Shown piece after piece: positions 23,766-24,540 of a DNA stretch of 29,698 bases; position 1 is the first letter of the stretch, and every line of letters begins with the position of its first letter. Source of the DNA: a virus. The stretch is from the IMG/VR virus record IMGVR_UViG_3300032236_000177, positions 1 through 29,698 of that record; one strand, written 5' to 3'. Position numbers and translations under genes: made by a program. The notes below the pieces were generated by a model. It did no database searches. It was given only the letters and a program-made list of their open reading frames with translations, and was not told the DNA's origin.

Positions 23766-23802
23766 AAAAAACTGTTTGACGAATAGGGGGCACGCCCCCT
23801 AT
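23766..23802 (-). terminator. GC-rich hairpin ending the candidate RNA
   Basis: On the minus strand AUAGGGGG (23802-23795), loop CGUG, CCCCCUAU (23790-23783): a perfect 8-bp stem. The U-run that would complete an intrinsic terminator (23771-23766) comes 11 nt after the stem, so termination may be partial, allowing read-through to the helicase gene at 23746. Confidence 0.55.
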
Positions 23803-24027
23803 ACGGCTAGTCCTGACGCAGGGAAAGGTTTTCTGAAGAAGGCCTGCCGACTAACTGATATGGTTATTGCCCTGCAAAGTAGGCTAACGATCCACTACAT
23901 ACCTAACGACCGAACGGTTTTAAAGTCCGTCAACTGAATCCTTTGTTGGCGCTCCCATAAAGCAGGGTTAGGACACAACACTCTTTAATATTCGCCATCC
24001 TACGGAGCTAAACCGTTTCGCCAACAT
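23781..24027 (-). ncRNA. Candidate structured non-coding RNA (about 245 nt)
   Basis: A 309-nt gap without credible ORFs, preceded by a near-consensus promoter whose predicted start is near 24027-24025. The RNA would begin with UGUUGGCG (24026-24019), which pairs perfectly with CGCCAACA (23951-23944), closing a multibranched domain. Inside are ACGG/CCGU (24016-24013 with 24005-24002), AGGA/UCCU (24001-23998 with 23973-23970) capped by a six-pair hairpin, and CCC/GGG (23967-23965 with 23956-23954). The 3' part has UUGC/GCAA (23877-23874 with 23870-23867), UAGUC/GACUA (23853-23849 with 23812-23808) enclosing GCAGG/CCUGC (23847-23843 with 23822-23818), and the final GC-rich hairpin. It is not a normal tRNA or another RNA I recognise. 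A long structured 5' leader of the helicase gene is the alternative. Confidence 0.65.
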
Positions 24028-24032
24028 TTCTC

Positions 24033-24060
24033 ATTATAAGGACTAATTTAAAAATGTCAA
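24033..24060 (-). promoter_or_regulatory. Strong sigma70-type promoter
   Basis: On the minus strand TTGACA (24060-24055), a 16-nt spacer, TATAAT (24038-24033): both hexamers are perfect consensus. The -35 box overlaps the TGA stop codon (24059-24057) of the upstream small HNH-like gene. Transcription is expected to start near 24027-24025 and to produce the structured RNA and possibly the helicase operon. No other promoter of this quality was noticed in the window. Confidence 0.88.
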
Positions 24061-24368
24061 GTTCTGCTACGCTCTTTTTTGCTAATTTCTGATAAGAGGT
24101 TACCCTTAGAGTCTCGTTTAAATGAACGATTCTTTGATGCACTTTCAATACGCAGACCATCTTTATTCGATCCACCCTTGTCAAGCGCCAAGACATGAGC
24201 TACGTCTTTACCTTTGCGCTTGGGGGATTCTTTAGTGACTGTGCCTGTATCACGCTTATCAATTGCACGTCTAGCACGCTGACGCTCGTCACGACGTTCT
24301 CTCTCGCCACGTTCGAGTTGTTGTTGATATTCTTTTTTATAAGGTCTAGGCTTGTTAACGTACGGCAT
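24057..24368 (-). CDS. Small basic HNH-like protein (103 aa)
   Basis: I choose ATG 24368, which has GGAG 6 nt upstream, rather than the in-frame ATG at 24389. The product is 103 residues and highly basic. Residues 10-40 are an Arg/Lys/Glu-rich helix (ERGERERRDERQRARR). Then comes GKDVAHVLALDKGGSN, followed by GLRIESASKNRSFKRD. The second half has the shape of the compact HNH fold in small phage proteins (DVDH...GG.N..NLR...SKNRSF), but the Asp before the key His is Ala (A57-H58), so catalysis is doubtful. It overlaps the preceding gene by 14 nt. A DNA-binding role without cleavage is possible. Confidence 0.7.
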   Translation of the reverse strand: MPYVNKPRPYKKEYQQQLERGERERRDERQRARRAIDKRDTGTVTKESPKRKGKDVAHVLALDKGGSNKDGLRIESASKNRSFKRDSKGNLLSEISKKERSRT

Positions 24369-24540
24369 GTTCGCTCTCCAATTTTGCAATGACTTCGGGA
24401 TATTTTATTTTGGCTTCTTCAACTGTACACAGAGGAATATTTCTAGCTTCTAAGCCCCTACGCAGAGCAGTATGCCCATCGTTCTCGTAATGTTCATACA
24501 AAATATCGTCTTTTATAAAATACCATGTTTCATATGACAT
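24355..24540 (-). CDS. Small hypothetical protein (61 aa)
   Basis: A 61-residue, acidic, soluble protein starting MSYETWYFIKDDILYEHYEN. It is preceded by AAGGAG about 9 nt before the ATG, and the ATG directly follows the TAA of the nuclease gene. The N-terminal half is aromatic and beta-like, the C-terminal half (TVEEAKIKYPEVIAKLESEH) is a likely amphipathic helix. No family is recognised. Its tight spacing between two genes on the same strand supports it as real. Confidence 0.7.
   Translation of the reverse strand: MSYETWYFIKDDILYEHYENDGHTALRRGLEARNIPLCTVEEAKIKYPEVIAKLESEHAVR

Follow-up and report, generated by a model that had tools for sequence, protein, structure and literature searches.

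Genes and features of the locus

The window (the whole stretch of viral DNA that was analysed, 29,698 nucleotides) contains an interval in which no convincing ORF was seen. It lies between the end of an ORF of the phrog_4590 group (24057) and the start of an SNF2-type helicase gene (23746). Relatives of the phrog_4590 protein display an HNH-like pattern by eye. The features of the interval and its borders are as follows.

24057..24389, minus strand: upstream 110-aa ORF, phrog_4590; ends inside the -35 box
24033..24060, minus strand: sigma70-type promoter TTGACA-16-TATAAT, 12 of 12 matches; expected start at about 24026, 7 nt after the -10 box
23944..24026, minus strand: 5' domain P0, predicted from the sequence; 8-bp closing stem with inner hairpins
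23782..23917, minus strand: conserved RNA core (P1, pseudoknot, P2, P3, P4); match to model R1, covariation in relatives
23888..23912, minus strand: P1 hairpin, CGGUC (23912-23908) with GAUCG (23892-23888); its loop contains a pseudoknot strand
23857..23903, minus strand: H-type pseudoknot, GGUAU (23903-23899) with AUAUC (23861-23857); 5 of 5 pairs in the window
23806..23855, minus strand: P3 hairpin, GUUAGUC (23855-23849) with GACUAGC (23812-23806); 7 of 7 pairs in the window
23783..23802, minus strand: P4 end hairpin, AUAGGGGG-CGUG-CCCCCUAU, predicted from the sequence; 8-bp helix
22175..23746, minus strand: SNF2-type helicase gene; starts 36 nt after P4

An initial annotation had described a structured RNA of about 250 nt in this ORF-free interval, driven by TTGACA-N16-TATAAT, with the expected start at the first base of a perfect 8-bp stem. 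Inspection of the locus agrees with each of these points. The promoter occupies 24060-24033 of the minus strand, and the expected start coincides with the first base of the P0 closing stem, formed by TGTTGGCG (24026-24019) with CGCCAACA (23951-23944). A transcript running from 24026 through P4 is predicted to measure about 245 nt. The interval yielded no tRNA or Rfam match, in line with the statement that 6S, tmRNA, tRNA and RNase P cannot be recognised in it.

A stem beginning in the first 3 nt of the transcript is found in 0.5% of shuffles. The 83-nt 5' domain, whose boundaries were picked post hoc, folds better than shuffled sequences (z -2.75, 0 of 200). The whole 257 nt fold no better than shuffles (z -0.87) and the energy of the conserved core is likewise average (z 0.14). 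Folding energy alone would therefore miss the RNA.

The closing stem stressed in the initial annotation is real, but a conserved 5' 8-bp stem had to be rejected, as it was not found in the inspected relatives; the conserved RNA is the 3' half (23917-23782). Among these relatives P0 is specific to the phage of the window, where about 100 nt of 5' domain separate the promoter from P1. It is missing from L001-L006, in which the promoter abuts P1. Locus L028 and the bacterial copies L203 and L208 have 5' hairpins that are analogous to P0 but unrelated. P0 itself (24026-23944, minus strand) contains AGGAU...GAGUG...UCCUAACC, a faint likeness to a degenerate pseudoknot core, to which the models give no score.

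A conserved core with an H-type pseudoknot

Relatives of the helicase were taken from viral contigs and the DNA before the helicase was compared. In many of them a stem whose loop reads GUWAGGYRYGAGUG precedes the motif AACCRYRYCAGU, and the GGYRY of the former is complementary to the RYRYC of the latter. This core was turned into a degenerate DNA pattern that did not require complementarity; at least 120 environmental viral contigs of IMG/VR match it. All 120 loci listed are complementary at all five pseudoknot positions, as against a mean of 69 and a maximum of 81 when partners are shuffled between contigs.

In alignment A2 (33 sequences with the end loop CGUAA), 89.6% of the paired cells are filled by pairs, compared to 66.2% in shuffled and 33-39% in slid partners. 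The covariation score is 0.683 (0.235 shuffled, 0.10-0.13 slid). Covariance model R1 was built from the A2 sequences with P1, P3 and P4 only and with the window left out; it finds the window at E=3.2e-8. Model R2, which includes the window, reports it at 7.4e-12. The more diverse alignment A5 (71 sequences) gives corresponding values, with 89.5% of cells paired (61.1% shuffled, 32-44% slid) and a covariation score of 0.661 (0.220 shuffled, 0.055-0.094 slid).

The pseudoknot, which is absent from the model, is paired in 99.7% of its cells over the 71 sequences (all but one cell), and two of its pairs show 30 double changes each. The single unpaired row is a doubtful second match in L093 (3348-3449), which was rejected as a weak second copy because its likeness to the family is confined to the end hairpin. 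The P1 helices of the relatives are paired to 76-84%, and both partners have changed at each of the 8 pairs. The P3 helix covaries over the 71 sequences, and P4 is paired to 93.7% among sequences with letters at these positions. Fifteen positions are conserved to at least 95%, nearly all of them in the pseudoknot core (AGG, G.AGUG, AACC, C, G), and about ten near-invariant bases are unpaired.

The covariation in homologues, proposed in the initial annotation as a check, is thus very strong, and comparable in kind to the support for established RNA classes. A conserved structured RNA is present with near certainty. At the level of sequence comparison, its strand, the promoter-like sequence, helices P1, P3 and P4, the H-type pseudoknot, the non-coding nature and the wide occurrence are established.

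The location in the replication module would also fit a DNA element, such as an origin of replication or a packaging site, with inverted repeats that mimic RNA structure. G-U pairs, however, are common, which indicates that RNA and not DNA is under selection. At one pseudoknot pair G-U predominates (45 of 70), which is meaningful in RNA only, and promoters on the same strand point into the RNA. Such a DNA-level element is highly improbable.

In order, members of the family have the P1 hairpin, a P2 that may be missing, the pseudoknot strand, P3 with its pyrimidine loop and the P4 hairpin. The core comprises roughly 140 nt, and about 245 nt in the window with the phage-specific 5' domain included. 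AGG..G.AGUG and AACC...C.G flank the pseudoknot and are near-invariant. The window carries GGYRY in the P1 loop, paired with a downstream RYRYC between conserved flanks; AACC and AUAUCAG are intact and GUAGUG has one extra U. It also has the P3 and P4 helices that covary in the relatives. Within P3, GCAGG and CCUGC form an inner stem and the loop contains CCUUUC (23828-23823). The P4 loop is usually CGUAA or GAAAGA, and CGUG in the window has diverged.

Promoters at the first helix

Sites with at least 9 of 12 matches were counted as sigma70-like in a survey of 116 loci. Within the 40 nt that immediately precede the first helix, 19 such sites were observed where about 4 were expected. For seven of the eight 11-match sites the distance from their end to P1 is 0-6 nt, which would place the start of transcription at the first helix. 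A sigma70-like promoter directly precedes the RNA in L001, L003, L006, L028, L088, L131, L144 and L147. The window and L028 have 12 matches each and differ by the extra 5' domain before P1.

These promoters bear on the possibility that early phage transcripts contain a novel small RNA capable of cleaving or processing itself. Phage ribozymes are characterized by pseudoknots, invariant unpaired bases, varied genome positions and sporadic presence in bacteria, and the present RNA shares all of these traits. Known ribozymes, on the other hand, do not match it, and where the promoter starts the RNA at P1 nothing is left on the 5' side to be cleaved off. Self-cleavage is accordingly considered very unlikely.

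Genomic context in phages

The helicase starts less than 800 nt downstream of the RNA in 101 of the 120 loci listed, typically 40-85 nt after P3, and a phrog_4590 protein ends within 150 nt upstream in 102 of them. Most phages have no U-run after P4, which makes read-through from the RNA into the helicase likely.

This arrangement resembles a leader. As the 5' UTR of the helicase mRNA, the RNA would control translation or stability in cis, either by autoregulation through a replication protein or by riboswitch-like sensing of a ligand; the near-invariant unpaired bases would suit this role as well. Several lineages, however, keep the RNA elsewhere or without the helicase. In other phages of the same type it precedes the DNA polymerase gene (L131, L140) or follows the helicase (L134, L142, L190). 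It is located upstream of terminase genes in L084, L093 and L118, before a different DNA polymerase in L179 and near a function-unassigned gene in L090; in these five loci a related helicase is absent from the fetched DNA. Bacterial copies apart from any fixed gene (see below) also speak against the leader, as does the pairing behaviour of the P3 loop. Control of the helicase in cis is the main rival explanation and is possible, albeit on the unlikely side.

The RNA is present in 30 of the 80 closest helicase relatives. Among cultured phages, those examined with the most similar helicases (28-41% identity) have no copy near that gene, and blastn searches of isolated phages with several members of the family returned nothing usable. 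In the phage records searched the RNA is single-copy; the one exception, a record with two identical-scoring matches near its ends, probably reflects sequence repeated at both contig ends. The terminase large subunit gene of L118, about 1740 nt after the RNA core, seems to contain an intein-like insertion (GGWCLPAGTLILMPDG...).

Copies in bacterial genomes

A scan of bacterial genomes revealed clear copies in Polynucleobacter kasalickyi, in related beta-proteobacterial metagenome genomes and in Methylophilales HTCC2181. Strong matches of model R2 (E below 1e-9) are present in 5 of 40 genomes of the Polynucleobacter group; the tally of seven for this group includes two weak ones, which are coding sequence or poor matches. 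At least 3 of 300 genomes of the order of L205 and at least 5 of 398 of its phylum carry the RNA, both numbers being lower bounds since strict filters lose weak matches.

Copies L203, L205 and L208 are solitary, flanked by genes of the opposite strand, and end with a hairpin and a U-run. Other bacterial copies follow a gene on the same strand. Among several species of the Polynucleobacter group (L219, L221, L230, L233, L239, L242), a two-gene unit precedes the RNA; it codes for a protein of about 155 aa without a Pfam match and a likely membrane protein of about 200 aa. At the orthologous site of L244, from the same group, the neighbouring gene pair is present and the RNA absent. Thus, the RNA can be gained or lost, although the site does not give its exact ends.

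Five bacterial matches to the first pattern (L206, L207, L209-L211) are attributed to chance, since inspection by eye found nothing matching beyond the pattern. L231, L232, L234 and L235 were set aside as weak or located in coding sequence. A phage subtype (L087, L110, L164) has the P1 type and the GGAAAGAC end loop in common with the Polynucleobacter subtype, which hints that these phages infect hosts of the Polynucleobacter type.

The P3 loop and the 3' end of 16S rRNA

P3 is strongly enriched for words from CUCCUUUC, the sequence resembling the 3' end of 16S rRNA (anti-Shine-Dalgarno). At least 7 nt are shared with ACCUCCUUUCUA in 25 of 93 P3 regions (4.3 expected) and at least 8 nt in 16 of the 93 (1.0 expected). 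In one genome of the Polynucleobacter group the 3' end of the 16S rRNA reads CACCUCCUUUCU. The predicted folds leave the 16S-like words unpaired more often than other parts of the loop region (0.71 versus 0.42, p=3e-9), p-values being guides only because related sequences are not independent. An exposed loop complementary to ribosome-binding sites is thus a property of the family that is weakly developed in the window, where the match amounts to 6 nt only (CCUUUC) with an unpaired probability of 0.49.

For 62 helicase-adjacent loci, the P3 loop was paired with the ribosome-binding site of its own helicase. The mean energy is -6.3 kcal/mol, compared to -7.2 kcal/mol with permuted partners, and about 0.02% of the permutations are as weak. 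A cis switch through the P3 loop is therefore unsupported, because pairing with the own site is weaker than with the sites of other phages. The own-site pairing is weak as if self-pairing were avoided, and lineage composition is an alternative cause.

Comparison with known RNAs

At the curated scores of its covariance models, Rfam 15 (4227 families, among them 6S, tmRNA, RNase P, tRNA, riboswitches, ribozymes, c4 and Polynucleobacter-1) gave zero matches in the window and at the RNA in the loci of 14 relatives; one tRNA was detected elsewhere in L202. The Rfam comparison suggested in the initial annotation therefore assigns the RNA to no described family. Nothing fitting was found in the literature on Polynucleobacter RNA motifs and phage RNAs, two large candidate lists being outside this comparison. 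Weinberg et al. (2017) reportedly compiled a large list of candidate RNAs, and Fremin et al. (2023) are said to have predicted many unnamed structured RNA candidates from viral genomes. The data of the latter are similar and the present RNA could be among their candidates; an earlier nameless listing is possible. What is new is an RNA family that matches no Rfam family, and no new type of mechanism is claimed. To our knowledge, few conserved structured RNAs of phages are known besides tRNAs, tmRNA and introns.

ToxI RNAs are H-type pseudoknots of type III toxin-antitoxin systems on mobile elements and phages, and such antitoxins form tandem pseudoknot repeats upstream of a toxin nuclease. The present RNA shares the H-type pseudoknot and the presence in phages. 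In contrast to ToxI, it is single-copy and larger and has extra hairpins, and no toxin gene was seen. A ToxI-like antitoxin was rejected on account of the single copy and the usual neighbours, the phrog_4590 protein and the helicase. In a broader sense, the pseudoknot may serve as a decoy that titrates a host protein or neutralises a defence nuclease, comparable to the type III RNAs. The near-invariant loops and the sporadic presence in phages and some chromosomes are compatible with this role; the lack of tandem repeats and of a recognised adjacent toxin gene, a size far above that of ToxI repeats and the zero Rfam matches are not. The decoy is judged unlikely.

Trans-acting sRNAs with C/U-rich anti-Shine-Dalgarno loops constitute a general class. 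The present RNA resembles them in its exposed CUCCUUUC-like loop complementary to ribosome-binding sites and in the U-run at the end of some bacterial copies. It differs in its covarying pseudoknot core and near-invariant bases, and in its occurrence mainly in phages.

The c4 antisense RNA of phages P1 and P7 (RF01695) pairs around a ribosome-binding site from RNA loops (PMC12197685). A similar pairing is proposed here for another phage RNA, which differs from c4 in context and architecture and has no Rfam match. HRC-28-1 is an orphan structured RNA of Polynucleobacter with several stems, the last of which is terminator-like; it adjoins a PRK05408 gene and rpiA, and phages are absent from the main text of that report (PMC8632094). 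The present RNA likewise is a structured RNA with several stems in Polynucleobacter. Identity with HRC-28-1 was rejected, as no PRK05408 or rpiA neighbour was recognised by eye around it.

Proposed mode of action

The RNA is read as an autonomous RNA gene, since its neighbours vary, the phage records searched contain it as a single copy and, in a subset, a promoter lies exactly at its start. The initial annotation had likewise suggested a free-standing ncRNA. Covariation and promoters support this suggestion, but the closing stem from which it was derived is local to the phage of the window. Action in trans is slightly favoured, because the form is kept in unrelated contexts and promoters are located at the 5' end. 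Action through the anti-Shine-Dalgarno-like loop is plausible but more doubtful than not. The complete reading, in which an RNA of a new family with its own promoter acts mainly as a trans regulator by pairing of the P3 loop with other mRNAs, is put forward tentatively, at somewhat less than an even chance.

According to this proposal, its own sigma70-type promoter would drive transcription of the RNA together with the replication genes. The pseudoknot core with the near-invariant GAGUG and AACC would be a rigid module, with a protein or the ribosome as its probable binding partner. The pyrimidine loop of P3 would pair with the ribosome-binding sites of other host or phage mRNAs and thereby lower or retime their translation during infection. 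Some freshwater betaproteobacteria would keep copies as chromosomal RNA genes. In a stronger version, phages of freshwater bacteria would use a mimic of the 16S 3' end, mounted on a pseudoknot with near-invariant bases, to disturb translation initiation, and Polynucleobacter and relatives would have captured it as a chromosomal RNA gene; this version is rather unlikely.

The leader-like position just before the helicase, with P4 mostly lacking a U-run, counts against action in trans. Against the loop, the word resembles any C/U-rich loop and the sequences are related. Given the P4 hairpins without U-run, the RNA may also combine the two roles, as a leader whose 5' part arises by processing or by another mode of termination. 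With its pseudoknot, about ten near-invariant bases and 16S-like loop, it provides a definite, testable object for the use of RNA by phages of freshwater bacteria.

Additional elements near the helicase gene

A further hairpin just before the ribosome-binding site of the helicase was observed in L095, L096, L097, L098, L100, L146, L178 and L192. It looks conserved, occurs in many distant relatives and in some has a loop-side sequence like GUGGACACCAC. Situated between P4 and the start of the helicase, this hairpin could act as a translational operator. In the window, a second near-perfect sigma70-type site (TTGACA-16-TAAAAT, 11 of 12 matches, 22323-22296, minus strand) is found within the 3'-terminal part of the helicase gene and is directed at the next gene of the replication cluster, phrog_13900.
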